Source of the DNA: Gayadomonas joobiniege G7
Lineage (GTDB): Bacteria; Pseudomonadota; Gammaproteobacteria; Enterobacterales; Alteromonadaceae
DNA: 64,000 nucleotides
Assembly: GCF_000300815.1 (NCBI RefSeq)
Contig: NZ_AMRX01000001.1
Span: forward strand, 372,001-436,000
Direction: 5' to 3'
Below are positions 4,960 to 64,000 of the stretch, piece by piece (the first letter of the stretch is position 1; each line of letters starts with the position of its first letter). The notes below the pieces were generated by a model that saw only the letters and a list, made by a program, of their open reading frames with translations, did not search any database and was not told the DNA's origin. Position numbers and translations under genes: made by a program.

Positions 4960-7500
4960 ATGCACACCTTAAATAAAATAAGCTTTGCTGTAATAAGCAT
5001 TTTGCTCAGTAGCTCGGCGCTCGCACAAGCAGATCAGCTTGCAAACCAAACCGAAATAGAAGAAGTGGTGGCCGTAGCTTCACCAATAAGAGATAGTCAA
5101 AAAGCGGCCATCGATGCCAAACGGCAGGCCAATAACTTTGTGGATATTGTAGCCGCCGATACGATTGGTCGTTTTCCTGATCAAAACTTAGCAGATTCAC
5201 TCGGTCGAGTGCCAGGGTTAGCGATAGAAAGAGATCAAGGCCAAGCCCGCTATATTAACTTTAGAGGTGCGCCCTTTAGATACACCAGCATAGCCATTGA
5301 CGGTATTTTAATTCCGGGTGCTGAAAATGGTCGAATTCCTCGCTTTGATAGCTTTCCATCTGTGATCACCAGCCGCATCGAAGCGAACAAAGCCATCACG
5401 GCCAAGATGCCAGCAGAGAGCATTGCTGGCTTTATCAATATTCATACCTTTAATCCATTTGACAGCCAAGGGTTTGCATTATCGGCCGATTTAGGGCGCG
5501 GTCAGCAACAACTCGGCGATGGTGATGTAAAAAAACAATCCGCACGCCTATCTTGGTCCGGTGAAGAATGGGGAGTGAGCGCATTTGCATCACAAAATAG
5601 TCGAGAGCAGATCACAGACAACCGTGAATTTGATTTAGAACTAGAAAACGCTCAACTGAAAGTGAATGAGTTGGATTTTCGCAGCTATAAAATTAAACGT
5701 GAAGACAGCGCCATTGGTGGACGTTTAGAGTATCGCCCAAATGGCAGCGCAAATAGAATATTTTTATCCAGTTTACGCAGCGAATTTAAAGATTTTGAGC
5801 AACGCAACCAATATGTATTTGATTTAGCTGGCGGAGCCGAAGCACTGGGTGTTGCACAACCGCTTGGCGAACGTGGCGAATTGCCGCTTATTTTAGTCAC
5901 GCGAATGTTAGAAGATGGGGTCTATAAAAACTCTACTTTTACCACCACTTTGGGAGCCGACATTCAACTCGGACAATGGTTTGTAGAAAGTCGTTTAAAC
6001 CATACTAAAACTGAAAACCATACTGCTTTGCCGATCATTATGAGCGCAGGCGGAAAAACTGCAGGCGCATTTGATATCAGCAATTTAGCCGATCCTATAT
6101 TAACTTTGTATAAAATGGGTAGTAACGATCAAATCAGTGCAGGTGAAATTAACCAACCTAAAGATAACAATGACTACGCCATGCACTTGGCCTACCCTAT
6201 AGAGTCGCAATTAGAAATTAAATCTAACCAGCTAAAAATTGATGCTGAACGGTATGTAAAGCTGTTTGCTGATAGCCAAATTTTAACGCTTGGTGTGGCG
6301 ATTAACGACAAACAAGCCGATGGTTTTGGCATGTCTGCGGCAATTGGTGGTTTTCCACAAGCTGTTAATATAGATGATTTTATTACCGAAGACTCGTGGG
6401 ATAGCGACTTTACCAATAGCATTCAAGGTCAGTATTTTGATAACCAAGGTTTAAAAGATGCTTGGCAAGACAGCGTGGACGGCAGTTTGTTTGCAGCGCC
6501 CAGCGACGATTTATTGATAAAAATTGATGAAACCATCAGTAGTGGATACGCCATGTTAACCACTGACTATGGCTGGGGCAATTGGGTGATTGGCTTACGC
6601 GCTGAACACACTAATTATACCAGCACTGGCCCTGAAGCCAGCCATAGTGACTCTGAACTGCATTGGTTACCCAGCGCACATTTAAATTACAATTTATCAG
6701 ATAAAGTAAAACTGCGCGCTTCGTTTAATACCGCAATTAGCCGCCCAACCTACAACGAATGGCGTGGCAGTGCCTCTTACGATTTAACCCAAAGCCCAGT
6801 GACAGTTTCTGGCGGTAATCCAGCGCTCAAAGCAGAAGAGTCTATCGGTGCTGATTTTGCACTTGAGTGGTATGCAGCCGATGCCAGCTTATTGTCGGCA
6901 GGTTTGTTTACTCGCAGCATAGACAATGTGATTTATGCAGATAGTTCAGAGGTAGATGGCGGTTTATACAATCCAGAATACAGTGGTGAAACTTGGCAAT
7001 ATAGTGGGTTTGTAAATGGCAAAGATGGTCAACTGAATGGCCTAGAGCTGAACGCCATTGTGCAATTGGCAGATTTTATCGATGGCCCTTTTAATGGCTT
7101 TGGGTTTAGTGCCAATGCTACTTTTTTAGACAGCGAATTTACTAGCCTAAGCGGCAACAAATTTAGTTTACCCGGCACGTCAGATGCGATTTATAACGCT
7201 TCTGTCTTTTTTGAATCCGTCGACTGGTCGATACGATTAAATTATCAATTCCGTGATGACTGGTTATCAACCACAGAAAACGATTCTATGGGTGAGTACT
7301 GGGATGCCCAAACCCGTGTCGATTTATCGGCAAACTACCAACTGCCATGGCAAATATCCGGTGCAGACATTTCTTTGTACGCCAACCTGAACAATTTAAC
7401 TGACGAAGTCGACACCCGATACATAGGCACAGAACAAACCCCTAACCAAATTGAACGTTATGGCAAACGCTATTTAGTGGGTGTGCGAGTAAATTATTAA
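4960..7500 (+). CDS. TonB-dependent outer membrane receptor
   Basis: 846 residues. A signal peptide ends near ALAQA (about residue 24). The plug domain follows at about 50-165, with GRFPDQNLADSLGRVPGLAIERDQG and a YINFRG block, typical of the Caulobacter/Xanthomonas-type receptors often used for sugars or other large nutrients. The rest is a beta barrel that ends in an aromatic residue (LVGVRVNY). The ATG at 4960 follows GGGAG at 4950-4954. The stop is 15 bases before the ATG of a phosphatase-like lipoprotein, so the substrate may be a phosphorylated compound; that is inference. No SusD partner is present. Confidence 0.9.
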   Translation: MHTLNKISFAVISILLSSSALAQADQLANQTEIEEVVAVASPIRDSQKAAIDAKRQANNFVDIVAADTIGRFPDQNLADSLGRVPGLAIERDQGQARYINFRGAPFRYTSIAIDGILIPGAENGRIPRFDSFPSVITSRIEANKAITAKMPAESIAGFINIHTFNPFDSQGFALSADLGRGQQQLGDGDVKKQSARLSWSGEEWGVSAFASQNSREQITDNREFDLELENAQLKVNELDFRSYKIKREDSAIGGRLEYRPNGSANRIFLSSLRSEFKDFEQRNQYVFDLAGGAEALGVAQPLGERGELPLILVTRMLEDGVYKNSTFTTTLGADIQLGQWFVESRLNHTKTENHTALPIIMSAGGKTAGAFDISNLADPILTLYKMGSNDQISAGEINQPKDNNDYAMHLAYPIESQLEIKSNQLKIDAERYVKLFADSQILTLGVAINDKQADGFGMSAAIGGFPQAVNIDDFITEDSWDSDFTNSIQGQYFDNQGLKDAWQDSVDGSLFAAPSDDLLIKIDETISSGYAMLTTDYGWGNWVIGLRAEHTNYTSTGPEASHSDSELHWLPSAHLNYNLSDKVKLRASFNTAISRPTYNEWRGSASYDLTQSPVTVSGGNPALKAEESIGADFALEWYAADASLLSAGLFTRSIDNVIYADSSEVDGGLYNPEYSGETWQYSGFVNGKDGQLNGLELNAIVQLADFIDGPFNGFGFSANATFLDSEFTSLSGNKFSLPGTSDAIYNASVFFESVDWSIRLNYQFRDDWLSTTENDSMGEYWDAQTRVDLSANYQLPWQISGADISLYANLNNLTDEVDTRYIGTEQTPNQIERYGKRYLVGVRVNY

Positions 7501-7515
7501 TTGGAGCAAACAAAA

Positions 7516-8424
7516 ATGAAACTTTATAATAAAACCCTAGTATTAACCTTATCGGCTACTTTAATGATGACAGCCTGCCAAACCCTTGAATCACAAAAAC
7601 TGGCGGCACAAAATGCATCAGATCAACAAATCAGCGACGCCAGCAAACAAAAAGTATTACAGCTAGAGGGTGGCCGTAATTTTCGTCAACTCGGCGGATA
7701 CGAAGCAGCCGATGGGCGCAAGGTAAAATGGGATCTATTGTACCGCTCAGGGGCCTTGCACAAACTGACACCAGCCGACTATCAGCAACTTGCCATGCGC
7801 GACATCGCGACCGTTATTGACTTTAGAGCAAACGACGAAAGAGCAAAAGATGTAACTCAGTGGCAAGCAGACCCAATTAAACACATGACATGGGACTATC
7901 AATTAGAATTTGATAAAGCCGCTTTTGGCCGTCTGTTGAGCAAACCTAATGTGAGTGAAGCCGACATGGAACAACTGATGATACAAATGTACCCAGATTT
8001 AGTCCATTCGCAAAAAGCACATTACAAAGCCATGTTTGCCCGCTTGTTAGAAACAGACAAGCCTGTATTGTTTCACTGTACTGCGGGTAAAGATAGAACG
8101 GGTATCGCAGCCGCTTTGATTTTAACCTCACTAGGTGTTGATAAAAAAACAGTCATTAAAGACTATGTGATGTCTGAACAACTATTAGATCCAGCCGAGA
8201 TGTTGCATGCTTCTGACGAGCAAAAAGCCGACCCTATGTACGCGGCCTTTGCACGCCTGCCTAAACCGGCACTTAAAGCCTTAATGGGCACCCGAGCCAG
8301 CTATTTAGAAGCGGCTTTTGCTGAAATGGAACGCCAATCTGGCTCGGTTGAAAACTATATTCAAACCGAGTTAGAAGTGAGTCCAGCGCAAATTGTGCAA
8401 CTTCGTGCAAAGTATTTAAAATAG
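7516..8424 (+). CDS. Tyrosine-phosphatase-like lipoprotein (Y_phosphatase3 family)
   Basis: 302 residues from the ATG at 7516, which has GGAG at 7503-7506; an upstream in-frame TTG is less likely. The signal peptide ends in a lipobox MMTAC (Cys21), so it is a lipoprotein. The domain begins with LEGGRNFRQLGGY, then LLYRSGAL, VIDFRAN-E, and the P-loop HCTAGKDRTG with catalytic Cys188 and Arg194 (CX5R). This is the PF13350-type phosphatase pattern. It may remove phosphate from lipid, inositol or protein substrates in the periplasm. Cotranscription with the TonB receptor suggests it handles the imported or surface-bound ligand. Actual substrate unknown. Confidence 0.85.
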   Translation: MKLYNKTLVLTLSATLMMTACQTLESQKLAAQNASDQQISDASKQKVLQLEGGRNFRQLGGYEAADGRKVKWDLLYRSGALHKLTPADYQQLAMRDIATVIDFRANDERAKDVTQWQADPIKHMTWDYQLEFDKAAFGRLLSKPNVSEADMEQLMIQMYPDLVHSQKAHYKAMFARLLETDKPVLFHCTAGKDRTGIAAALILTSLGVDKKTVIKDYVMSEQLLDPAEMLHASDEQKADPMYAAFARLPKPALKALMGTRASYLEAAFAEMERQSGSVENYIQTELEVSPAQIVQLRAKYLK

Positions 8425-8429
8425 CCCCA

Positions 8430-8462
8430 TACAACCCAGTGATCACAAATCGCTGGGTTGTA
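8430..8462 (+). terminator. Hairpin after the receptor-phosphatase operon
   Basis: TACAACCCAG at 8430-8439 pairs perfectly with CTGGGTTGTA at 8453-8462, with a 13-base loop. No T-run follows, so it may be a Rho-linked or 3'-protecting hairpin rather than a classic intrinsic terminator. Confidence 0.5.
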
Positions 8463-13021: not shown

Positions 13022-14668
13022 ATGACCGGCGCAGAACTGGTTTTAAAAGTATTACAGCAACACGGCATTAAACACGTATTTGGTTACCCAGGCGGGGCTA
13101 TTATGCCCATTTACGATGCTTTATATGATTCGGATGTCGAGCACTTTTTATGTCGCCACGAACAAGGCGCTGCATTTTCGGCAGTCGGCTACGCGCGCTC
13201 CACGGGAAAAGTCGGTGTGTGCATGGCCACATCAGGACCCGGTGCAACCAACCTAGTGACGGGGTTGGCGGATGCTATGTTAGATTCTGTACCCGTGGTT
13301 GCTATTACCGGTCAAGTATTTAGCAGCCTTATTGGAACGGATGCGTTCCAAGAGATGGATGTGCTTGGCATGTCTTTGTCTATTACTAAACATAGCTTTT
13401 TAGTACAAAACATAGACGAGCTCGCCGACGTGCTGCACCAAGCTTTTGAGCTGGCACAATCGGGTCGTCCTGGCCCTGTTTTGGTTGATATCCCCAAAGA
13501 TATTCAAGTGGGCGCAACCGACTTTGAACCTTACCCAGTTAAAGAAATTAACGCGCGCAAAGCAGATTCAGCCGAAATTCAAAGCGCTCGTGAGCTCATC
13601 GAACAAGCACAAAAACCACTGTTTTACGTTGGTGGTGGTGTTGGTGCAGCGGATGCTTTAAGCGAGTTAGAAGCCTTATTGAACACGACACAAATTCCGG
13701 CAATTTCAACCCTTAAAGCTTTGGGATCAGTACCATCTGACTATGCGTACAATATGGGTTTTGTTGGTATGCACGGTAATCAAGCAGCCAACTTAGCGGT
13801 ACAAGAATGTGACTTGCTGATTTGTACCGGCGCACGATTCGACGACCGAGTGACGGGCAAGTTAGATACCTTTGCCCCAGAAGCCAAAGTGATTCATTTA
13901 GACATAGATGCCGCTGAAGTAGGTAAACTTAGACAAGCCGATGTATCCATTTTGGCAGACTTTAAAGATTTATTACCTCAATTGGCGGTTAAAGCAGATA
14001 TCAATAGTTGGCAACAACATTGCCAAGCATTAAAAGCCGAATATGCATGGCGCTATGATTATCCAAATAAAGATATTTATGCACCTGCGCTGTTAAATCA
14101 GTTAAGCCAACGTTTACCGCAAGATCATGTGGTAAGTTGTGATGTTGGCCAGCACCAAATGTGGGTTGCACAACATATGTTATTTAGTTCACCTCGCAAC
14201 CACTTATCTAGCGGTGGGGCTGGTACTATGGGTTTTGGTTTACCGGCTGCCATTGGTGCTCAAGTAGCAAGACCCGACAGTGTTTCTGTCGTGGTGTCTG
14301 GCGATGGTTCTTTTATGATGAATGTGCAAGAGCTTGGCACCATTAAACGCTTTAACTTGCCAGTTAAAATTGTGCTATTAGATAACCAGCGCTTAGGTAT
14401 GGTTAAACAATGGCAAGAGCTGTTTTTTGACGAGCGTTATTCAGAAACGAATTTAAGTGACAATCCAGACTTTGTCACATTAGCAAAAGCGTTTAATATA
14501 GCGTCTTTAAGCATTAGTCAAAGTGATCAGGTAGAATCTGCCATCGACACTATGATTAATCATCAAGGTCCGTTTTTATTACACGTACAAATTGACGATA
14601 AAGCCAATGTTTGGCCATTAGTGCCACCGGGCAAAGCAAATCAAGAAATGTTGGAGGGCAACGCATGA
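13022..14668 (+). CDS. ilvG: Acetolactate synthase II large subunit
   Basis: 548 residues, as in E. coli IlvG. It condenses two pyruvates, or pyruvate and 2-oxobutyrate, with ThDP, FAD and Mg, the first common step to Val, Leu and Ile. Visible marks are the catalytic Glu47 in RHEQGAAF, the [11 protein letters not shown] block, [14 protein letters not shown], and the ThDP motif [15 protein letters not shown] with [10 protein letters not shown]. The reading frame is intact, unlike ilvG of E. coli K-12, which is frameshifted. The gene lies just after the attenuator. Its TGA overlaps the ATG of ilvM (ATGA). Confidence 0.97.
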
Positions 14669-54517: not shown

Positions 54518-54669
54518 TTGGTACCTCCATAGAATATTACATATATGGTAGGGAAAAGCAGAACAAACAAATAGACAGCAAAAGTAAACTCATTAGTGCC
54601 ATAACGGCAACAATAGAGTAGAATCGCTAAAATATTAGATGTTTGGTATTTTTTTTAGAGGTTTTACAG

Positions 54670-55623
54670 GTGGATATTACCAATAAGCTGATGATATTTT
54701 TAGAAGTTGTTGAGCAGGGTTCCCTTGCCCGGGCAGCCGAACTTAGAAATGTAGATCGCTCTGTAGTTTCTAAACAGCTAAACAAATTAGAAGAGGAACT
54801 TGGGGTGCGTTTGCTTAATCGCTCGACACGTTCTTTTTCACTGACAGCGGCGGGGGCGGAAATGGTAAAAAAAGCCAAGGAGCTAAGGCTAATGTTAAGT
54901 GAAACCGTGCAAATTGCTGAAAATTACCATAGCGAACCCAGAGGCCTACTCAAGCTCACCAGCTCTTCCATCTTGGGTAAACGTTATATTCAACCAGTTA
55001 TTAATGATTTTCAAAAACGCTTTCCACAAGTGGAAGTCGAGTTAAGGCTCGAAGACAGGGTGGTTGATATTGTAGGTGAAGGTTATGATCTGGCTTTTAG
55101 GGTTGGCCCACCGCGTGACTCTAATTTAATCGCACGCCCACTCGCCCGCACTCGTTTACTTATTTTGGCAGCTCCTGAATTTATTCAAACCTATGGCGAG
55201 CCAAAAACGATTGAAGAATTAGCAGAGCTGCCAGCCGCAATTTATGCCGGTGATTCTAAAAAAGTGCATGAGTTATTACATATAGATAAAAATGGCAAAG
55301 AAGTTGCCACACCTATGCGCAGTGTATACCGCGCCAATGATGGTGAACTATTGCTTGCTAAAGTCATCTCAGGTACCGCTTATACCGCAGTACCCGCATT
55401 TATTGTGAACGATGAAATCATCAAAGGATCCCTTATTCCTATCATGCAGCATATCCACCTGCCTGAATATCATAAGATGAATGTGGTATACCCCCACCGA
55501 GGTTTACCCGCTCGCTCGCAGCTTTTTTTTGATGCAGTGAAAGAATATATAGGCTCGGAGATCCCAATTTGGGAGCATAATATTCCGGGATTCGAAAAAA
55601 TGTACGGTCACAAACCAAGTTAG
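54670..55623 (+). CDS. LysR-family transcriptional regulator
   Basis: 317 residues from a GTG at 54670 with AGAGG eight bases upstream, giving the usual LysR N-terminus MDITNKLMIFLEVVEQGSLARAA; the longer TTG start at 54643 is unlikely. The winged helix spans about 3-60 (VDRSVVSKQLNKLEEELGVRLLNRSTRSF) and the effector domain about 90-295. It is divergent from the RND operon (152-base spacer) and most likely controls it. Confidence 0.92.
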   Translation: MDITNKLMIFLEVVEQGSLARAAELRNVDRSVVSKQLNKLEEELGVRLLNRSTRSFSLTAAGAEMVKKAKELRLMLSETVQIAENYHSEPRGLLKLTSSSILGKRYIQPVINDFQKRFPQVEVELRLEDRVVDIVGEGYDLAFRVGPPRDSNLIARPLARTRLLILAAPEFIQTYGEPKTIEELAELPAAIYAGDSKKVHELLHIDKNGKEVATPMRSVYRANDGELLLAKVISGTAYTAVPAFIVNDEIIKGSLIPIMQHIHLPEYHKMNVVYPHRGLPARSQLFFDAVKEYIGSEIPIWEHNIPGFEKMYGHKPS

Positions 55624-55774
55624 TGCAAACACACCAAAATGGTGCAAAATATCAAGTTAGCGAACCCAGCTAGACTTTTATAAAACAGGGAATCATAGGC
55701 TAAACGACTGAGTTTTAATATTTTTATCTACAATTTTAAAACTTGGAACAAGATCTGCATAGTTCTATTCAGCA

Positions 55775-55948
55775 GGAGCTCATTTAAATTGAGCCGACTT
55801 CACCAAAGAGATATCTAGGGTTCCGACTGTTTATCAGTGACTGGTCCGAGAGTTATCAACCCAGGTGACTGTGGTAACACAGGTTGCTATTTGCAGGGGT
55901 TACACGGCGGGACAAAAGCCCGGGAGGATAAATTTAAATGAGCCTCCC
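55775..55948 (+). ncRNA. Guanidine-I riboswitch (ykkC)
   Basis: The conserved ykkC blocks are present in order: CTAGGGTTCCG at 55815-55825, CTGGTCCGAGAG at 55841-55852, and ACGGCGGGACAAAAGCCCGG at 55904-55923. A hairpin with a GTAA loop lies at 55869-55882. The aptamer is closed by a long helix: GCTCATTTAAATT (55778-55790) with AATTTAAATGAGC (55931-55943), extended by GGA/TCC. No T-run follows, so control is probably of translation. Two alternative pairings exist: TTACACGG (55900-55907) with CCGTGTAA (55961-55968), and GGGAGG (55922-55927) with CCTCCC (55943-55948). A possible -10 (TACAAT) is at 55729. The ligand should be guanidinium. Confidence 0.93.
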
Positions 55949-55986
55949 TGTGCCCGAAAACCGTGTAAACTTTGGAGAATGCAACT

Positions 55987-57018
55987 ATGAAAGCCATAAA
56001 AACCCTTACGCTCGCACTTGCTTTACTCACCTCATTTAACTCGTTCGCAAAAGATAAATTTTCTGTTTGTTGGTCAATTTATGCTGGCTGGATGCCTTGG
56101 GAATATGCCAACAGTCACGGCATTATAAAAAAATGGGCTGATAAATATGATATCGAAATCGAAGTTGTGCAAATTAACGACTACATAGAATCGATCAACC
56201 AATACACTTCAGGTCAGTTTGATGCCTGCACTATGACAAACATGGATGCGCTAACCATACCAGCCGCCAGTTTTGTCGACAGCACCGCCTTAATTGTCGG
56301 TGACTATTCTAACGGTAATGATGGCGTTGTACTTAAAGGCAAAAATAGCCTTAAAGATATTAAAGGCCAACAAGTTAACCTGGTTGAGCTATCTGTTTCA
56401 CACTACTTTTTAGCACGAGCGCTAGAATCAGTTGGTTTGACAGAGCGTGATATTAAAGTAGTTAACACAGCTGATGCTGATTTAGTTGCAGCCTATTCAA
56501 CCAACGATGTAACTGCTGTGGTCACTTGGAACCCTATGTTGTCAGAAATTATTAAACAACCTGACGCGAACTTAGTTTATACCTCAAAACAAATTCCTGG
56601 TGAAATTCTAGATATGATGGTTGTTAACACAGCAACGTTACAGGCCAATCCAGAACTAGGAAAAGCGTTAACCGGCGCTTGGTACGAAACACTCGCGTTA
56701 ATGAATGACGATAAAGTGCTTTCGCATATGGCAGACGCTTCAGGTACAGATCTCGCCGGTTACAAAAACCAAGTTGCCAGCACCTACCTGTTTTATAAAG
56801 CCCAAAATGCGCTTGATTTTGTAACCAGCAAAGAACTGCCAGATCTGTTAAAAAAGGTTGCTGACTTCTCTTTTGACCATGGTTTATTAGGCGAAGGCGC
56901 GCCAGATGCAGGTTTTATAGGCATTGAAACGCCAGCCGGTATTGTTGGTGACAGTAATAATATTCAGCTTAGATTTGATGCCAGCTTCGTAAAAATGGCA
57001 GCCGAAGGCAAACTATAA
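55987..57018 (+). CDS. ABC transporter substrate-binding protein, probably for guanidine
   Basis: 343 residues from ATG 55987 (GGAG at 55974-55977); the frame opens five codons earlier with TTG. The signal peptide ends near SFAKD. The mature part belongs to the NMT1/TauA-like fold: VCWSIYAGWMPWEYANSHGI, FDACTMTNMDALTIPAASF, and VVTWNPM. Homologues are often labelled putative urea ABC transporter binding protein because they lie with urea carboxylase-like genes. Under a guanidine-I riboswitch, guanidine is the more likely ligand. It heads the operon. Confidence 0.88.
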   Translation: MKAIKTLTLALALLTSFNSFAKDKFSVCWSIYAGWMPWEYANSHGIIKKWADKYDIEIEVVQINDYIESINQYTSGQFDACTMTNMDALTIPAASFVDSTALIVGDYSNGNDGVVLKGKNSLKDIKGQQVNLVELSVSHYFLARALESVGLTERDIKVVNTADADLVAAYSTNDVTAVVTWNPMLSEIIKQPDANLVYTSKQIPGEILDMMVVNTATLQANPELGKALTGAWYETLALMNDDKVLSHMADASGTDLAGYKNQVASTYLFYKAQNALDFVTSKELPDLLKKVADFSFDHGLLGEGAPDAGFIGIETPAGIVGDSNNIQLRFDASFVKMAAEGKL

Positions 57019-57037
57019 ATAGTTAGGGGTCGCGATT

Positions 57038-57859
57038 ATGAAACGTCTCATGAATCTGGAACCTTCGCGCCCCGTGCGACTGTTCCTCACCCTGCTGCCT
57101 TTTATCTTGTTGCTACTTCTATATTGGAGCGCATCAGATGCAAGGCTCGCAGAAAACCCGAATGACCGTCTGCTGCCCAGCTTTACTCAAATAGCAGACG
57201 CTATCGATCGCTATGCCTTTACCGAAAGCAAACGCACTGGTGAATATTTATTTTGGCAAGATACCAGTGCCAGCTTATCGCGTATTTTAACAGGCATCGC
57301 AATCAGTGCACTGGCTGGCCTGCTGGTTGGTTTATTAACGGGTATTTTACCAACGGTGCGAGCAGGATTTTCACCGTTAGTCACTGTCATCTCGCTAATT
57401 CCGCCGATGGCTATCTTACCCATTCTTTTTATTACTTTTGGGCTAGGTGAGCTATCTAAAATGATGTTGGTGATCATTGGCACTGCGCCAGTAATTATGC
57501 GCGACATTCAAGCTCACGTAGAGCAACTACCCAGCGAACAATTAATAAAAGCACAAACCCTCGGGGCTTCAACTTGGTTGGTGACCTTGCGTATTATTTT
57601 GCCGCAGATAATGCCTAGATTAATTGCATCTGTTCGTTTGTCACTCGGCGCCGCTTGGTTATTTTTAATTGCGGCCGAAGCCATTGCCGCGCAAGACGGT
57701 TTAGGTTACCGGATATTTTTAGTTCGTCGTTATATGTCGATGGATATTATTTTACCGTACGTTTTTTGGATCACGACACTGGCTTTTGCCATGGACTTTA
57801 GTCTGCGCAAAATATCAGAGCTCTGTTTTCCGTGGTTTCATCAGGAGGCCGGCAAATGA
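57038..57859 (+). CDS. ABC transporter permease, probably for guanidine
   Basis: 273 residues with about six hydrophobic helices. The permease EAA loop is visible: EQLIKAQTLGASTWLVTLRIILPQIMPRLIA near 168-198. The fold is that of nitrate/taurine-type (BPD) permeases. Its TGA overlaps the ATG of the ATPase gene (ATGA), which fixes that gene's start. It forms the membrane channel of the riboswitch-controlled transporter. Confidence 0.9.
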   Translation: MKRLMNLEPSRPVRLFLTLLPFILLLLLYWSASDARLAENPNDRLLPSFTQIADAIDRYAFTESKRTGEYLFWQDTSASLSRILTGIAISALAGLLVGLLTGILPTVRAGFSPLVTVISLIPPMAILPILFITFGLGELSKMMLVIIGTAPVIMRDIQAHVEQLPSEQLIKAQTLGASTWLVTLRIILPQIMPRLIASVRLSLGAAWLFLIAAEAIAAQDGLGYRIFLVRRYMSMDIILPYVFWITTLAFAMDFSLRKISELCFPWFHQEAGK

Positions 57860-58641
57860 GTTTTTTACAAATAAAAAATGTCTGGAAATCCTACGGTGAT
57901 GCACAAATTTTAGAGCGCTTATCAGTAGATGTAGAGGCAGGTGAGTTTGTTTCTATGGTGGGCGCATCAGGTTGTGGCAAAACGACCCTGCTAAAAATGA
58001 TTTTAGGCAGCGAACAACAAACCCGCGGCGAAATTTTGTTAGAAGGCAAACCCTTGGTTGCTGAGCCTGATGCTGAGCGCGGCATTGTTTTTCAGCGTTA
58101 TTCGGTTTTTCCTCACTTAACTGTGCTAAAAAACGTGATGCTGGCAGATGAAGTGGCCAATGCCCCGATTTTAGGTCGCTGTTTTGGCGCTAAAAAGCGA
58201 CAAATCAAAGATAAAGCTATGCAGTTTATCGAAGCGGTTGGTTTAAACCATGCGCTGGATAAATACCCGCACCAACTTTCTGGAGGCATGCAGCAACGCT
58301 TGGCAATCGCCCAAGCATTAATGAAATCTCCAAAAATTTTATTGCTTGATGAGCCGTTCGGGGCACTTGATCCTGGCATCACTCAAGATATGCACAAGTT
58401 GGTGCGCGAAATATGGCAAAAAAACAAACTTACTATATTTATGGTAACTCACGACATTCAAGAAGGTTTTGAATTGGGTTCTCGTTTATGGGTGTTTGAC
58501 AAAGTTCGTCATGATCCACAAGCACCAAACGCTTACGGGGCCCAGATCACCTACGACTTAAAATTGGATCGACAAACTAAAGATGCTGGTCTGCAGCAGA
58601 TTTCAGCCAATATGACTCAAAAGGAGGTCACTAAACCATGA
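57856..58641 (+). CDS. ABC transporter ATP-binding protein, probably for guanidine
   Basis: 261 residues from ATG 57856 with AGGAGG upstream, overlapping the permease stop; the longer frame from 57832 runs into the permease gene. Walker A is GASGCGKTT (about 37-45), signature LSGGMQQRLAIA, Walker B ILLLDEPFGALDP, and the switch His is in MVTHDIQEGF. It belongs to the nitrate/sulfonate/taurine ATPase group. The stop again overlaps the next ATG (ATGA). Confidence 0.93.
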   Translation: MSFLQIKNVWKSYGDAQILERLSVDVEAGEFVSMVGASGCGKTTLLKMILGSEQQTRGEILLEGKPLVAEPDAERGIVFQRYSVFPHLTVLKNVMLADEVANAPILGRCFGAKKRQIKDKAMQFIEAVGLNHALDKYPHQLSGGMQQRLAIAQALMKSPKILLLDEPFGALDPGITQDMHKLVREIWQKNKLTIFMVTHDIQEGFELGSRLWVFDKVRHDPQAPNAYGAQITYDLKLDRQTKDAGLQQISANMTQKEVTKP

Positions 58642-59348
58642 TTTTATATCAAGACACGCTACCCGGTGGTAAACACTGGTCAATGCGGATGCGTCGCGGC
58701 ACTAGTTTACGTTTAATTGATATTGAAGGCGGTGCCAATGTCGGCATGTTGTTCTACAACCCTGAAAACCTTTTAGAGCGTTACAACGCACCCGATACAC
58801 TAAAGTGCCAACACACTTTTAAGCTCACTCGTGGCCATTGTTTATATTCGGATATGGGGCGCATTTTTTGCTCAATCACCGAAGATACGTTTGCGTGGCA
58901 TGATACTTTGTCGGGTAACCTGCATGCCAAACATGTTACAGCAAAATATGGCAAACGCGATTACCAAACCGATCGCAATAACTGGTTACAAAATGGCCAT
59001 GATGCTTTTTTGGTTGAAGCCGCTAAATATGGGTTAAATCAACAAGATCTTGCAGCCAACCTGAATTTATTTAGCAAAGTCAGCCCAGATGAAAACGGCA
59101 AGCTGATTTATCATGCAAACGCTTCAAAAGCCGGTGATTTTATTGAGTTGAGGTTTGAAATGGATACATTGGTATTAATGCACACCTGCCCGCATCCTCT
59201 AAACCCTGCCAGTGAATATCCGTTTAAGCCGGTTGAATATCAGATTAAAAAATCAGCCCCAGTCGCTGACGATGATTTTTGCAAAAACCTGTGTGGTGAA
59301 AACCAACGTGGTTTCGAAAACAACCGACTTTACCACTTAGGTTTATAA
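58638..59348 (+). CDS. DUF1989 protein, carboxyguanidine deiminase subunit (UAAP1)
   Basis: 236 residues. It is the first of two DUF1989 proteins formerly called urea-amidolyase-associated proteins. [49 protein letters not shown] and HTCPHPLNP hold Cys and His residues that probably bind a metal. Work on the guanidine pathway shows that the pair forms carboxyguanidine deiminase, which turns carboxyguanidine into allophanate and ammonia; transfer to this gene is by family and context. The ATG overlaps the ATPase stop. Confidence 0.85.
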
Positions 59349-59364
59349 CAGAAGGAAGATAACC

Positions 59365-60006
59365 GTGATTGTAGAAAGTGAATTGAAAGCCGAAAACGCT
59401 GTGGTCAGCGATACGGTTGATGCTGGCGATTATTACCTTAAAGTGATTAAAAAAGGCCAAATTGTTCGCATCTTAGATGTAGAAGGTAACCAAGCCGCAG
59501 ATACTTTATTTTATAGTGCCGCAGATCCGGCAGAACGTTATAGCGCCACCGACACCATACGTGAGCAAGGCCAAGTATACCTAACTGCGGGTAGTGTACT
59601 TTTGTCTAACCATATGAACCCTATGTTAAAAATAGTGGCTGATACCTGTGGTCGTCACGACACTATAGGCGGTGCTTGTGCGACTGAAAGTAACACAGTA
59701 CGTTATGCATTAGACAAAAAATGCATGCATGCCTGCCGCGATAGCTGGTTGTTAGCGATTGCTGAAAACGAAGAACTGGGTTTGTCAAAAAAAGACATCA
59801 CCCACAACATTAACTTTTTTATGAATGTCCCTGTCACGCCTGAAGGCGGTTTAAGCTTTGCTGACGGTATTAGTGGAGCAGGCAAATATGTTGAACTAGA
59901 AGCTTTGATGGACACCATCATCCTAATCTCAAACTGTCCACAACTTAATAACCCATGCAACGCATATAACCCGACTCAAATTCAAGTACTGGTCTGGGAT
60001 CAATAA
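59365..60006 (+). CDS. DUF1989 protein, carboxyguanidine deiminase subunit (UAAP2)
   Basis: 213 residues from a GTG at 59365 preceded by GAAGGAAG. It resembles the previous gene product: [49 protein letters not shown] and [17 protein letters not shown]. The Cys/His positions match those of UAAP1, so the two are paralogues that probably form one heteromeric deiminase. It is followed by a second riboswitch and then by the carboxylase. Confidence 0.85.
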
Positions 60007-60028
60007 GTAACTGTTAAATTTTTGGTAT

Positions 60029-60076
60029 CAGGACGGCCTGTTTACCAACTAAAAAGTTTTTCGCGGGACGACCCGC
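60029..60076 (+). ncRNA. Guanidine-II riboswitch (mini-ykkC)
   Basis: Two small hairpins each have an ACGR tetraloop, the defining mark of guanidine-II RNAs. The first is CAGG-ACGG-CCTG at 60029-60040, the second GCGGG-ACGA-CCCGC at 60063-60076, with a 22-base linker. The Shine-Dalgarno GGGAG (60081-60085) lies 4 bases after the second hairpin and the carboxylase ATG at 60095, the usual place for this class, which controls translation. Two such loops bind guanidinium by dimerising. The first stem is only 4 bp. Confidence 0.85.
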
Positions 60077-60094
60077 ATTTGGGAGTCTGTCATC

Positions 60095-63000
60095 ATGTTT
60101 TCTAAAGTATTAATCGCTAACCGTGGCGCTATCGCTTGTCGAATTATTCGCACATTAAAAAAACTTGGTATCAAAAGCGTTGCTGTTTACGCAGAAGCCG
60201 ATCGTGAATCTTTACATGTTAGTGCCGCCGATGAAGCCTATAGTTTAGGCGAAGGTGCTGCAGCCACCACCTACCTTGATCAAGATAAAATAATAAAAAT
60301 ATGCCAGCAAACTGGCGCTCAAGCCGTGCATCCAGGTTATGGTTTTTTAAGCGAAAACGCACAATTTTCCGATCGCCTTAAACAAGAAAATATTACTTTT
60401 ATCGGGCCTCGTGGCCAGCAAATGTTAGAGTTTGGTTTAAAACATGAAGCGCGCGCACTCGCCGAAAAAGCTGGGGTACCATTAGTACCCGGCAGTGGAT
60501 TATTAGAAGACATCAGCGAAGTAAAATCTTTCGCCCTACAAGTTGGCTATCCTGTGATGCTAAAAAGTACTGCTGGTGGCGGCGGCATCGGCATGCAAAA
60601 ATGTGACAGCGAAGCCGAATTAGAAAAAGCCTTTAAAAATGTTAAACATTTAGGCGCACAAAACTTTGCCAATGATGGTGTATTTTTAGAAAAATTTGTT
60701 GAAAAAGCGCGCCATATCGAAGTACAAGTTTTAGGGAATGGTAGCGGACAAGTAGTCACTTTAGGTGAACGGGATTGTTCTAGCCAGCGCCGTAACCAAA
60801 AAGTCATTGAAGAAAGTCCAGCACCTAATCTGCCAGAAGACACTCGCCAAGCGATGTTTGCGACGGCTAAAGCTTTAATGCAATCTATTCATTATTTAAA
60901 TGCGGGCACCGTTGAATATATTTACGACCATGACGCTGACCAGTTTTACTTTTTAGAAGTAAACACACGCTTACAGGTTGAACACGGTGTAACAGAAGCT
61001 TGTTACAATATCGATCTGGTTGAGTGGATGTTAAAAATAGCAGCCAACGAAGGTACAGACCTATCTGAACTTGCACAATTAAGCCCCCAAGGTCATGCTA
61101 TTCAGGCACGGGTTTATGCCGAAAATCCGATGAAAAACTTTCAACCAGCGGCTGGTTTATTAACTCAGGTTGAATGGCCTAAAGCAGATGGCCTTAGAAT
61201 TGATCACTGGTTAGAAGCCGGTATTCAAGTTTCGCCATTTTTTGATCCTATGCTGGCCAAAGTTATCACCCATCAAAATAGTCGTGAAGAGGCCATTCAG
61301 GCCCTCGACGAAGCACTGGCTGACAGCCAGATTTACGGCATAGTCACCAACATAGATTACGCCAGACAAATTTTAGCGTCACAGCCTTTTGTTGATGGCA
61401 AAATATTTACCCGCACGCTCAATGACTTTACGGCCAGTTATACCGGCTTTGAAGTGATTAAATCTGGCACTATGACCACGATCCAAGATTACCCCGCACG
61501 CGAAGGTTACTGGAGCATAGGGATCCCACCTTCTGGGCCTTTTGATTTTTATTCGTTTAAATTAGCAAACCGACTGTTAAACAACCCGGAGGATGCGGCC
61601 GGCCTAGAGATCACCATTCAAGGACCAAGCCTTAAGTTTTATGCCGATACCCAAGTGGCTGTCTGTGGTGCTCAAATTGACATCAAACTGGACGACCTCG
61701 AGTGTCAGGCGAATCAGGTTATAAATATAAAAGCGGGTCAAACCTTACAGTTAGGACAAGTCAAAAATGCCGGTGCTCGTGCGTATTTAGCGATAGCAGG
61801 TGGTATTCAATGCCCCGATTATTTAGGCAGTAAAAGCACCTTTACGTTAGGTCAGTTTGGTGGCCACAGCGGCCGTGCTCTGCGAGTCGGTGACTTTTTA
61901 CAGCTACTACCACTTATTCAATCACAAGAGATAATTACAGCGGATAGCCAAGTTCAGGCTGACATTAACCATGAGTGGACCTTGCGGGTAATCTATGGGC
62001 CGCACGGCGCACCAGACTTTTTTACCGAAGCGGATATAAAAACCTTTCAGCAAAGTGAATGGAAAATTCACTATAACTCCAGCCGCACAGGGATACGCTT
62101 AATCGGCCCAAAACCAGAGTGGGCGAGAGAAACGGGTGGTGAAGCTGGCTTACACCCGTCAAATATTCATGACAATGCGTATGCGTTTGGTACCGTCGAT
62201 TTTACCGGCGACATGCCTGTCATTTTAGGTCCTGATGGGCCAAGTTTGGGTGGATTTGTTTGCCCTTTCACTGTGATCAGTGCTGACTTGTGGAAATTAG
62301 GCCAGCTAAAAGCCGATGACAAAGTTAGGTTTGAGGTGGTCGATATAACCAGCGCCAATCAGATTGAACGTGCCCAGGCTGAACAAATTGAATTGCTGAA
62401 ACCCGTTCCTGTTGAGTACCAACAAGTACCTATTACAAGCCCTATTTTAGATACTTTAACGACAGAAGATGGTGAGCCGGATCTGGTATTTAGGCAGGCA
62501 GGTGATAAGTTTTTATTGGTTGAATACGGCGAACTTGTACTTGATTTAACGTTACGAGCACGAGTGCAAGCCTTGCTCGAGGCAGTACAAGCAGAAAAAA
62601 TTTCAGGTGTTCTAGAACTGACTCCAGGCATACGTTCGCTGCAAGTTCATTACGATAGTTTAATACTGCCTGTCAGTGATCTAATTGAGCGCATTAAGCA
62701 GCTTGATCTTAAACTGGGTGATACCCGCCAACTAACCTTTAAATCTCGAATCGTGCACTTACCGCTATCGTGGGACGATGAAGCATGTCGAACAGCAATC
62801 GAAAAATACATGCAATCGGTCCGTCCAGATGCACCTTGGTGCCCGTCGAATTTAGAATTTATTAAACGAATTAATGGTCTTGATAGTATTGAACAAGTTA
62901 AAAAGATTGTATTTGATGCCAGCTATTTAGTATTGGGGCTAGGTGATGTGTATTTAGGCGCACCTGTCGCGACCCCTCTTGATCAATGTCATCGGTTGGT

Positions 63001-63691
63001 GACCACTAAATACAACCCAGCACGAACTTGGACCGCTGAAAATTCAGTGGGTATTGGCGGTGCTTATATGTGTATTTACGGCATGGAAGGTCCAGGCGGA
63101 TATCAATTTGTTGGCCGCACAGTGCAGATGTGGAATCGCTACCGACAAACTCAGGCATTTGAGCAGCCTTGGTTATTAAGATTTTTTGATCAGATCCGTT
63201 TTTATCCAGTCAGCCATGATGAACTAAACCAAATGCGGGCAGATTTTCCAACCGGTCGCTGGACACCGAAAATTGAAGAAAGCGAAATTTCGATGCCAGA
63301 GTTGAGCCGCCAATGGGCAGAGCGAGAAGCTGAAATAAGAGCCTTTACTGAGCAGCGGGAACAGGCATTTGCTGCCGAAATGGCCGAATGGAAACGCACA
63401 GGGCAACTCAATTACCAATACCAAGAAGCACAAGCCGATAAAACGGATGCAATCGAGCTTAGCGAGAACCAGTTTTTAGTGGAATCAAACGCCGGTGGCA
63501 GTGTTTGGCAGCTCGTCGCCAATGCTGGAGATACAGTGGATGCCGCCCAAACATTAGCCGTTTTAGAATCAATGAAAATGGAAATTGATATCCCTGCACC
63601 AGAAAAAGTCAAAGTGGTTAAGGTTTTGGTTAAAGCAGGCCAACAAGTACAGGCTGGTCAGGCATTAATGGTATTGGAAACAATCGAATAG
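60095..63691 (+). CDS. Biotin-dependent guanidine carboxylase (urea carboxylase family)
   Basis: 1198 residues. An N-terminal biotin carboxylase (about 1-447) has ANRGAIACRIIRTLK, KSTAGGGGIGMQ, and NTRLQVEHGVTE. The carboxyltransferase half has a KipA-like part (about 455-760: SGTMTTIQDYPAREGYWSIG, GPDGPSLGGFVCP) and a KipI-like part (about 790-1060: RQAGDKFLLVEYG, NSVGIGGAYMCIYGMEGPGG). The C-terminal biotinyl domain carries VLESMKMEID with the biotin Lys1161. It spends ATP and bicarbonate to carboxylate its substrate. Context (two guanidine riboswitches, deiminase pair) indicates guanidine, not urea. The allophanate hydrolase gene follows, so it is not a fused urea amidolyase. Confidence 0.9.
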   Translation: MFSKVLIANRGAIACRIIRTLKKLGIKSVAVYAEADRESLHVSAADEAYSLGEGAAATTYLDQDKIIKICQQTGAQAVHPGYGFLSENAQFSDRLKQENITFIGPRGQQMLEFGLKHEARALAEKAGVPLVPGSGLLEDISEVKSFALQVGYPVMLKSTAGGGGIGMQKCDSEAELEKAFKNVKHLGAQNFANDGVFLEKFVEKARHIEVQVLGNGSGQVVTLGERDCSSQRRNQKVIEESPAPNLPEDTRQAMFATAKALMQSIHYLNAGTVEYIYDHDADQFYFLEVNTRLQVEHGVTEACYNIDLVEWMLKIAANEGTDLSELAQLSPQGHAIQARVYAENPMKNFQPAAGLLTQVEWPKADGLRIDHWLEAGIQVSPFFDPMLAKVITHQNSREEAIQALDEALADSQIYGIVTNIDYARQILASQPFVDGKIFTRTLNDFTASYTGFEVIKSGTMTTIQDYPAREGYWSIGIPPSGPFDFYSFKLANRLLNNPEDAAGLEITIQGPSLKFYADTQVAVCGAQIDIKLDDLECQANQVINIKAGQTLQLGQVKNAGARAYLAIAGGIQCPDYLGSKSTFTLGQFGGHSGRALRVGDFLQLLPLIQSQEIITADSQVQADINHEWTLRVIYGPHGAPDFFTEADIKTFQQSEWKIHYNSSRTGIRLIGPKPEWARETGGEAGLHPSNIHDNAYAFGTVDFTGDMPVILGPDGPSLGGFVCPFTVISADLWKLGQLKADDKVRFEVVDITSANQIERAQAEQIELLKPVPVEYQQVPITSPILDTLTTEDGEPDLVFRQAGDKFLLVEYGELVLDLTLRARVQALLEAVQAEKISGVLELTPGIRSLQVHYDSLILPVSDLIERIKQLDLKLGDTRQLTFKSRIVHLPLSWDDEACRTAIEKYMQSVRPDAPWCPSNLEFIKRINGLDSIEQVKKIVFDASYLVLGLGDVYLGAPVATPLDQCHRLVTTKYNPARTWTAENSVGIGGAYMCIYGMEGPGGYQFVGRTVQMWNRYRQTQAFEQPWLLRFFDQIRFYPVSHDELNQMRADFPTGRWTPKIEESEISMPELSRQWAEREAEIRAFTEQREQAFAAEMAEWKRTGQLNYQYQEAQADKTDAIELSENQFLVESNAGGSVWQLVANAGDTVDAAQTLAVLESMKMEIDIPAPEKVKVVKVLVKAGQQVQAGQALMVLETIE

Positions 63692-63701
63692 GATAAATAC
63701 A

Positions 63702-64000
63702 ATGACAATACAACTTGATATCAATAGTTTACATGCCGCTTATAAAAGTGGCGAAAGCACACCGGCTGAGCTGATCACTGATTTATTAACCAAAGCTAAA
63801 CAACAACAGAATGTTTGGATTTATTTATTAAATGATGACGAGCTCAAACCCTATTTAGACGCATTAGTGGACAAGTCACCCGAAACACATCCTTTATATG
63901 GTGTGCCCTTTGCGATTAAAGATAATATTGATTTAGCGGGTGTTCCAACCACAGCTGCTTGTGCAGAGTTCGCCTATACCCCCGAAACCTCTGCATTTGT
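63702..64000 (+). CDS. atzF: Allophanate hydrolase (amidase family), N-terminal part
   Basis: The first 99 codons of a gene cut by the window end. ATG 63702 lies 10 bases after the carboxylase stop, with AGGAT upstream. The product has LHAAYKSGESTPAELITDLL and YGVPFAIKDNIDLAGVPTTAAC, the amidase-signature N-terminus with the catalytic Lys in AIKDNID. It should split allophanate into ammonia and CO2, the last step of the pathway begun upstream. Confidence 0.87.
   Translation, partial: MTIQLDINSLHAAYKSGESTPAELITDLLTKAKQQQNVWIYLLNDDELKPYLDALVDKSPETHPLYGVPFAIKDNIDLAGVPTTAACAEFAYTPETSAF

Follow-up and report, generated by a model that had tools for sequence, protein, structure and literature searches.

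Near the end of the 64,000-nucleotide stretch of Gayadomonas joobiniege G7 DNA analysed here (the window, whose coordinates are used throughout), a Guanidine-I riboswitch aptamer opens an operon for guanidine import and degradation, and a Guanidine-II riboswitch lies inside this operon, before the gene of a guanidine/urea carboxylase. The double-class architecture is known and common. What we add is a promoter-anchored helix, P0, and a possible translational expression platform of Guanidine-I: judged by leader comparison, the Guanidine-I leader seems to contain an extra helix, apparently undescribed, which begins where the message itself is predicted to start. We incline slightly towards reading the whole as a nitrogen-scavenging guanidine operon with a sigma54 promoter, a P0-assisted translational Guanidine-I riboswitch and a separate Guanidine-II riboswitch acting on the carboxylase. 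We see even chances for a wider proposal on the Guanidine-I riboswitches of proteobacterial guanidine assimilation, namely that P0 has as its 5' strand the initial ~20 nt of a sigma54 transcript and competes with an OFF hairpin formed by aptamer P3 and tail, that an insert in P2 masks the start codon in Alteromonadales-type leaders, and that the switch is translational and depends on P0, so that NtrC/sigma54, Guanidine-I and Guanidine-II would form three serial gates.

Proposed P0 helix and predicted promoter of the Guanidine-I leaders

The initial annotation had placed a Guanidine-I aptamer at the head of the operon, and the Rfam search bore this out with a score well over gathering; between 50000 and 64000, cmscan reported nothing beyond Guanidine-I and Guanidine-II at E up to 1. 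The Guanidine-I core (CTAGGGTTCCG ... ACACGGNGGGANAAAAGCCCGGGAG) was conserved in an alignment of 26 sequences and in the leaders compared. By analogy with the copy of Vreelandella boliviensis, which binds guanidine with a dissociation constant (KD) of 44 uM (PMC12508155), the window aptamer would be a guanidinium binder.

For comparison, 88 leaders were collected from 57 of 65 Guanidine-I matches and 31 of 41 further loci, and removal of near-duplicates left 75; related species are still included, so the 75 leaders are not 75 independent cases. The matches dropped were four downstream second copies (Marinobacter), three minus-strand copies (cyanobacteria) and L174 (34.5 bits), and the loci dropped were L009-L016 (the window's own locus or repeat records), L045 and L062. 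The 70 nt upstream of each aptamer were scored for local pairing with the leader's own 46 nt downstream, against random re-pairing of the strands. We found that the mean score over the 75 leaders was 32.5, compared with 22.45 (standard deviation 0.61) after re-pairing, and none of 20,000 re-pairings was as high. The 43 non-cyanobacterial carboxylase loci behaved similarly (34.4 vs 22.6; 0/20,000), as did 52 leaders whose upstream strand was limited to the predicted transcript (32.75 vs 21.7; 0/20,000). A leader's own downstream strand was the best of the 75 partners in 18 cases and within the top 5% in 41.

Moreover, the helix is tied to the predicted start of transcription. Its 5' end had a median distance of 3 nt from that start and lay within 6 nt of it in 38 of 52 leaders. 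When its position was left unrestricted, P0 began no more than 5 nt away from that start in 29 of 49 leaders, compared with 14.6 (maximum 28 in 5,000) when starts were permuted. For the window, both lie at -34 (55770). Cross-clade comparison, in which we assigned the clades ourselves and partly by the look of the sequences, showed 53 of the 88 leaders beating 95% of cross-clade pairings, and none of the controls was as good as the window's own pair; the same test gave no support in Methylophaga (0/3) or cyanobacteria (0/6) and little among the leaders grouped as "other" (4/21). In 21 hand-picked leaders the strands differ between lineages and pairing is kept for most, with 46 of 420 cross pairs reaching the lowest own-pair score. 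P0-type pairing also occurs in other Vreelandella loci (L160, L195). Compensatory change was found over the leader set and not for the window alone.

The promoter to which P0 is anchored was predicted by comparison with the sigma54 consensus TGGCACRN4TTGCW, and the NtrC consensus was applied to the region upstream of it. The sigma54 scan accepted sites within 120 nt upstream that matched 9 or more of the 12 informative positions, with GG and GC exact. Such sites were present in 58 of the 75 leaders, against 1.37 in mononucleotide shuffles, 1/75 on the reverse strand, 1/75 at -480..-360 and 3/75 at +300..+420. The window leader has a predicted sigma54-type promoter of this kind, whose transcript would start at ~55770, about 34 nt before the aptamer, and rpoN is present in the genome. 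NtrC-like boxes matching at least 11 of 14 positions were found in 48 of 75 leaders (2.15 in shuffles), and boxes matching at least 12 of 14 in 17 of 75 (0.25 in mononucleotide shuffles). A LysR-family regulator gene occupies 54643-55623, just upstream and on the same strand as the operon, and the first of the two window boxes overlaps its 3' end.

Nitrogen control by NtrC and sigma54 is not new in itself, since published work already reports or predicts it for genes of urea carboxylase. One such gene of Burkholderia cenocepacia changed in expression by -6.0 fold in an ntrC mutant, and the NtrC regulon table of the same paper also holds urea carboxylase-related transporter and aminomethyltransferase genes (PMC5491218). 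According to PMC12316311, 102 COG3665 genes are predicted to be under sigma54 control, and 59% of these carry the name urea carboxylase. Unlike the window operon, the genes in the available passages of PMC5491218 stand without mention of guanidine riboswitches, and the available text of PMC12316311 uses the word riboswitch a single time, in the title of a reference. Among the literature matches listed, sigma54/NtrC control together with guanidine riboswitches was not found in print; it may stand elsewhere.

The closest known likeness to P0 comes from the phosphoribosyl pyrophosphate (PRPP) riboswitch, in which the ends of a ykkC-fold aptamer pair as P0 and form part of the expression platform (PMC6031431), as is proposed here. 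In the window, unlike in the PRPP riboswitch, P0 would open with the predicted first base of the transcript, with ~13 nt between the end of its 5' strand and the Rfam aptamer boundary. A published paper states that P0 is absent from Guanidine-I, and neither P0 nor translational Guanidine-I was found in print among the matches listed, although either may stand elsewhere. If Guanidine-I has P0, constructs cut at the Rfam boundaries omit part of the switch, and the claim that P0 separates PRPP from guanidine aptamers needs revision.

Predicted OFF fold and possible mode of action of Guanidine-I

The minimum-energy fold of the window leader is a long hairpin in which TTACACGG...GGGAGG of the aptamer pairs with CCTCCC...CCGTGTAA, with further GTTGC/GCAAC pairing immediately upstream of the ATG. 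P0 and this OFF hairpin are mutually exclusive because both use CCTCC. An anti-aptamer motif (CGTGTAA, GTGTAAC or CTGTGTAA, the complement of the aptamer TTACAC core) was present in 19 of 75 leaders, against 0.48 when shuffled. The aptamer P2 insert is predicted to pair with the start region in L142, L155, L129 and others, and in the 14 Alteromonadales-type leaders this pairing scored 24.7, compared with 20.05 when re-paired (0/50,000).

We therefore propose the following course of events, in conditional terms. Transcription from the sigma54 promoter, probably under NtrC, would make the operon when nitrogen is short. The first bases of the RNA would be the 5' strand of P0. With guanidine bound, aptamer helices P1-P3 and P0 would form together, and P0 would keep CCTCC off the aptamer tail. 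Without guanidine, the 3' half of the aptamer would pair with the CCTCCC-containing strand, and the long hairpin would cover the importer start region. Guanidine-I would thus switch on importer translation; the pairing is supported comparatively and the effect on expression is our inference. Guanidine-II would act on its own to free translation of the carboxylase and, through coupling, of allophanate hydrolase, in the way described for this class in the literature. The carboxylase would then be made only after guanidine or, by analogy with Vreelandella, methylguanidine builds up.

The initial annotation had Guanidine-I gating entry to the operon, which as control by a terminator is doubtful in the window. 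The stretch scanned after the leader hairpin has no U-run (no 8 nt hold more than 4 T), and no terminator-like site was found at the hairpin (55922-55968). Because of this, translational control is favoured, and Guanidine-I may act here on translation rather than as a terminator. Fewer than 5 T were likewise counted in 10 of the 14 Alteromonadales-type leaders. In shorter folds, the mean fraction of unpaired start codon was 0.35 OFF vs 0.58 ON for Alteromonadales-type leaders and 0.55 vs 0.51 for the others, which is only suggestive, and the Shine-Dalgarno sequence of the window was unpaired at 0.28 OFF vs 0.47 ON. Comparative folding of related leaders suggests that the start of the first gene is masked; the modelled folds of the window itself are not clear on this.

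A number of results count against the proposed mechanism. On the side of folding, the OFF fold (-77.5) is ~16 kcal/mol lower in the energy model than aptamer plus P0 (-61.6), so that the switch would have to act during transcription or draw on tertiary and ligand energy. The start codon is largely paired in both states (unpaired 0.17-0.26 OFF vs 0.27-0.32 ON in constrained folds), and the shorter folds leave the window start more open in the OFF state (0.67) than in the ON state (0.29). One weak terminator-like match lies inside the aptamer (55869-55882), and at least 6 T in 8 were found in 16 of the 41 other leaders, so terminators may exist there. On the side of P0, the null fraction of the window was 0.044, which in our view understates its significance because the null contained relatives that share P0. 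By RNA.duplexfold, 3/100 shuffles and 13/74 mismatched partners were as good as the window pair; this program favoured GC-rich loci, with it no more than 15 of the 75 leaders outscored every one of the 100 shuffles, and the local pairing score was used instead. When 70 nt upstream were used, the window's upstream strand paired better with the downstream strands of L129, L130 and L155 (41, 41, 37) than with its own (35), and compensatory change is consequently unsupported for the window itself; in the transcript-restricted test, the window's own downstream strand was not surpassed by that of any other leader. Leader L133 has no P0, and the sigma54 scan found no site in L131, L132, L133 and L193. 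Finally, the window Guanidine-II is below the Rfam gathering score.

These weak P0 results for the window, together with the nearly palindromic character of its upstream strand, would suit a DNA-level inverted repeat (an operator) or an accident of composition, with no RNA helix behind the complementarity. We regard this explanation as very improbable: own partners beat every random re-pairing over the 75 leaders, the strands vary by lineage with pairing kept in most of the 21 picked leaders, the start of the helix is close to that predicted for the transcript, and the aptamer separates the two arms.

The scarcity of T residues bears on another rival, in which Guanidine-I is an ordinary transcriptional ON switch and guanidine blocks a GGGAGG/CCTCCC terminator. 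Transcriptional switching is presumed in print for the Vreelandella operon (PMC12508155), and U-runs do occur in other leaders (Marinobacter L143 and L140; L007 and L008 by eye). Given the few T residues after the hairpin in the window and in most Alteromonadales-type leaders, we consider such a switch unlikely for this operon, though a serious competitor of the P0-assisted translational switch. Rho-dependent termination at the leader is possible.

Guanidine-II and the genes of the operon

The features of the operon are collected in the following table. The carboxylase, the two UAAP/Cgd subunits, the importer and allophanate hydrolase make up the full gene set, and the genes stand close together or overlap.

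Features of the guanidine operon and its control region in the window
Feature	Position	Strand	Basis or remark
NtrC-like box 1, putative	55611-55627	+	11/14 positions of the NtrC consensus
NtrC-like box 2, putative, CACACCAAAATGGTGCA	55630-55646	+	12/14 positions of the NtrC consensus
sigma54-type promoter, predicted, TGGAACAAGATCTGCA	55744-55759	+	10/12 informative positions, GG-N10-GC exact
P0 helix, 5' strand (upstream partner), proposed	55770-55790	+
Guanidine-I aptamer (RF00442)	55804-55928	+	Rfam cmscan 78.7 bits, gathering 63, E 5.5e-13
P0 helix, 3' strand, proposed	55931-55952	+	in the OFF fold, its CCTCC pairs with GGGAGG of the aptamer tail as well
Anti-aptamer strand CCGTGTAA	55961-55968	+	complementary to aptamer TTACACGG
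Shine-Dalgarno GGAG and ATG of first gene	55974-55989	+	GGAG 55974-55977, ATG 55987-55989
ABC transporter substrate-binding protein	55987-57018	+	TIGR03427 ABC_peri_uca, family model over cut-off
ABC transporter permease	57038-57859	+	open reading frame (ORF) and domain scan
ABC transporter ATPase	57856-58641	+	ORF and domain scan
UAAP1, CgdA/B-type carboxyguanidine-degrading subunit	58638-59348	+	TIGR03425, model over cut-off
UAAP2, CgdA/B-type carboxyguanidine-degrading subunit	59365-60006	+	TIGR03424, model over cut-off
Guanidine-II (RF01068), two hairpins	60025-60076	+	27.5 bits, gathering 32; loops ACGG (60033-60036) and ACGA (60068-60071)
Shine-Dalgarno-like GGGAG of carboxylase gene	60081-60085	+
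Guanidine/urea carboxylase, 1198 aa	60095-63691	+	TIGR02712 urea_carbox, 1803.8 bits
Allophanate hydrolase gene, start only	63702-63998	+	continues past the window end

The ATG at 55987 is likely the start of the first (importer) gene. The two genes before Guanidine-II had been called deiminases in the initial annotation; their position stood, and their identity was corrected to UAAP1 and UAAP2, which we equate with the two subunits CgdA and CgdB of PMC12508155. The family model that the carboxylase matches is named urea carboxylase, and among solved structures its best match was 3va7 (KLLA0E08119p), followed by urea amidolyase. Allophanate hydrolase has 593 aa in the full genome and follows the carboxylase gene directly; its first 99 residues, which are what the window scan covered, scored below the whole-protein cut-off, and the ORF is complete in the genome. 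The best named matches include Catenovulum, Colwellia, Paraglaciecola and Shewanella, and the operon is probably that of a Catenovulum-type bacterium.

Guanidine-II sits in the 88-nt gap directly before the carboxylase gene, 4.1 kb downstream of Guanidine-I. An element with ACGG and ACGA loops had been described between the second subunit gene and the carboxylase, and it was confirmed there as a pair of hairpins whose ACGR loops are closed by G-C pairs. The Rfam models thus recovered both riboswitches, Guanidine-I over its gathering score and Guanidine-II under it, with an E value of 0.038 in the 14-kb search. In 28 aligned carboxylase-adjacent copies, the loops and closing pairs were nearly invariant and the stems covaried: 91.5% of cells pair (72.6% in shuffles), two-sided changes number 63 (19.3 in shuffles) and occur in 10 of 13 pairs, and covariation is 0.474, against 0.153 in shuffles and at most 0.155 with slid partners. 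A model built from these copies gave the window 41.4 bits, a value to be read in the light of the window having been in the training set. Position and conservation in relatives place the window element above chance, and the idea of a chance match was rejected on the same two grounds, conserved position and covariation. Translational control of the carboxylase by Guanidine-II is assumed by analogy with the literature on the class; in the predicted fold, GGGAG (60081-60085) is paired at 0.64-0.99 with the start region and not with hairpin 2. If a translational Guanidine-I is followed by a translational Guanidine-II, the picture of "transcription first, translation second" is altered for this operon type.

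The location of Guanidine-II directly before the carboxylase would also fit a carboxylase message made separately from a promoter of its own, of which Guanidine-II would be the 5' leader, and 10 of 76 named loci have Guanidine-II without a detected Guanidine-I, although 4 of these 10 span less than 4.7 kb upstream. Nevertheless, no sigma70-like match was found on the + strand of 57814-60200 (the sigma54 scan was not applied to the internal gap), the genes are close or overlapping, and Guanidine-I lies at a similar distance in 34 of the 36 loci having both elements. A separate transcript is therefore improbable, and two unrelated classes of guanidine RNA in one apparent transcription unit, the second before the carboxylase, are supported as initially annotated.

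Distribution and published precedents of the double arrangement

Among 60 genomes (the own genome and 59 relatives), Guanidine-I was detected in 12, and in all 12 a same-strand Guanidine-II followed 4.2-4.4 kb downstream (start to start). Guanidine-II was over the cut-off in 9 of the 12 and below it in G000 (27.5), G001 (28.0) and G016 (27.6). The hairpins are thus conserved at homologous operons, as the initial annotation had required of a real element. In a class sample of 369 genomes (Guanidine-I at E up to 0.001, Guanidine-II up to 0.01), 33 carboxylase places were found in 32 genomes. By our reading of three tables, 11 of the 33 had Guanidine-I and then Guanidine-II upstream on the same contig and strand; the others comprised one three-switch variant (G178), six places with Guanidine-I only, four with Guanidine-II only, four with neither and seven limited by the contig.

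The 76 named carboxylase loci were searched with two models built in this analysis, and 70 of them span at least 4.7 kb upstream. With Guanidine-II counted at E up to 0.01 and no more than 200 nt from the carboxylase, 36 loci had both elements, 10 had Guanidine-II only, 20 had Guanidine-I only and 10 had neither. Weaker adjacent Guanidine-II elements in Colwellia (L131, L132; E 0.06-0.07) and the weak Guanidine-I of L174 were left uncounted; L174 stands under neither, and counting its Guanidine-I would give 21 loci with Guanidine-I only and 9 with neither. In 34 of the 36 loci having both, Guanidine-I ended 4.1-4.8 kb before the carboxylase.

The double arrangement has been published, and novelty was rejected for it on this account. 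The V. boliviensis operon has Guanidine-I in the 5' untranslated region, an ABC importer, cgdA/B, Guanidine-II between cgdB and gca, and allophanate hydrolase (PMC12508155), all of which the window operon shares; mgdH and mgdL stand between gca and atzF in V. boliviensis, whereas atzF directly follows gca in the window. The same arrangement was reported for Raoultella, Erwinia and Klebsiella (PMC12186494), where, as in the window, the importer and carboxyguanidine-degrading genes lie behind Guanidine-I and the carboxylase and allophanate hydrolase behind Guanidine-II. A 2022 review of tandem riboswitches stated that no tandem arrangements with guanidine classes had been observed (PMC9481103), which as we read it concerns adjacent elements. 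The stacking of two classes, called unusual in the initial annotation, is thus known from these published genera and common in the loci surveyed here. The same annotation supposed that one ligand is sensed twice, which holds as far as both classes bind guanidine. In-line probing of the V. boliviensis RNAs gave KD values for Guanidine-II of 93 uM for guanidine and 83 uM for methylguanidine, and Guanidine-I showed no methylguanidine binding in the range tested (PMC12508155), so the two ligand ranges differ there.

Several further arrangements were observed. The own genome holds a second Guanidine-II (C4:523001; L001:1501-1877) of 35.8 bits, over the threshold and directly before a 104-aa SugE-type exporter of the small multidrug resistance (SMR) family; assimilation and export genes there are both behind guanidine RNAs. 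On the minus strand of L126 (G178:C3:325000-341000), an operon-like run contains three guanidine riboswitches, Guanidine-I, Guanidine-II and Guanidine-I, at about 13570-13674, 8412-8456 and 6432-6527. Its first genes encode an importer, a creatininase-family protein and a type III glutamine synthetase, and a desaturase-family protein and a TIM barrel follow Guanidine-II. Behind the second Guanidine-I are UAAP1/2-like genes (by eye), a carboxylase ORF in which carboxyltransferase domains were the only ones found, and an allophanate-hydrolase-like ORF (by eye). This run may encode a pathway that handles a larger guanidino compound. In Halioglobus, Litorirhabdus and an unclassified gammaproteobacterium (L139:5369-5413, L182:5473-5517 and L149:3701-3745), Guanidine-II lies ~1.5-3.3 kb before the carboxylase and does not directly adjoin it. 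An extra Guanidine-I several kb downstream of the carboxylase was seen in Marinobacter (L140, L143, L145 and L147, near 15.3-16.4 kb), and an extra Guanidine-II in a similar place at L171:13532-13576. Pairs of Guanidine-I elements in opposite orientation, ~0.3-0.45 kb apart (L172, L175, L186, G095:C5, G114:C35 and G367:C40), look as if they serve divergent guanidine genes.

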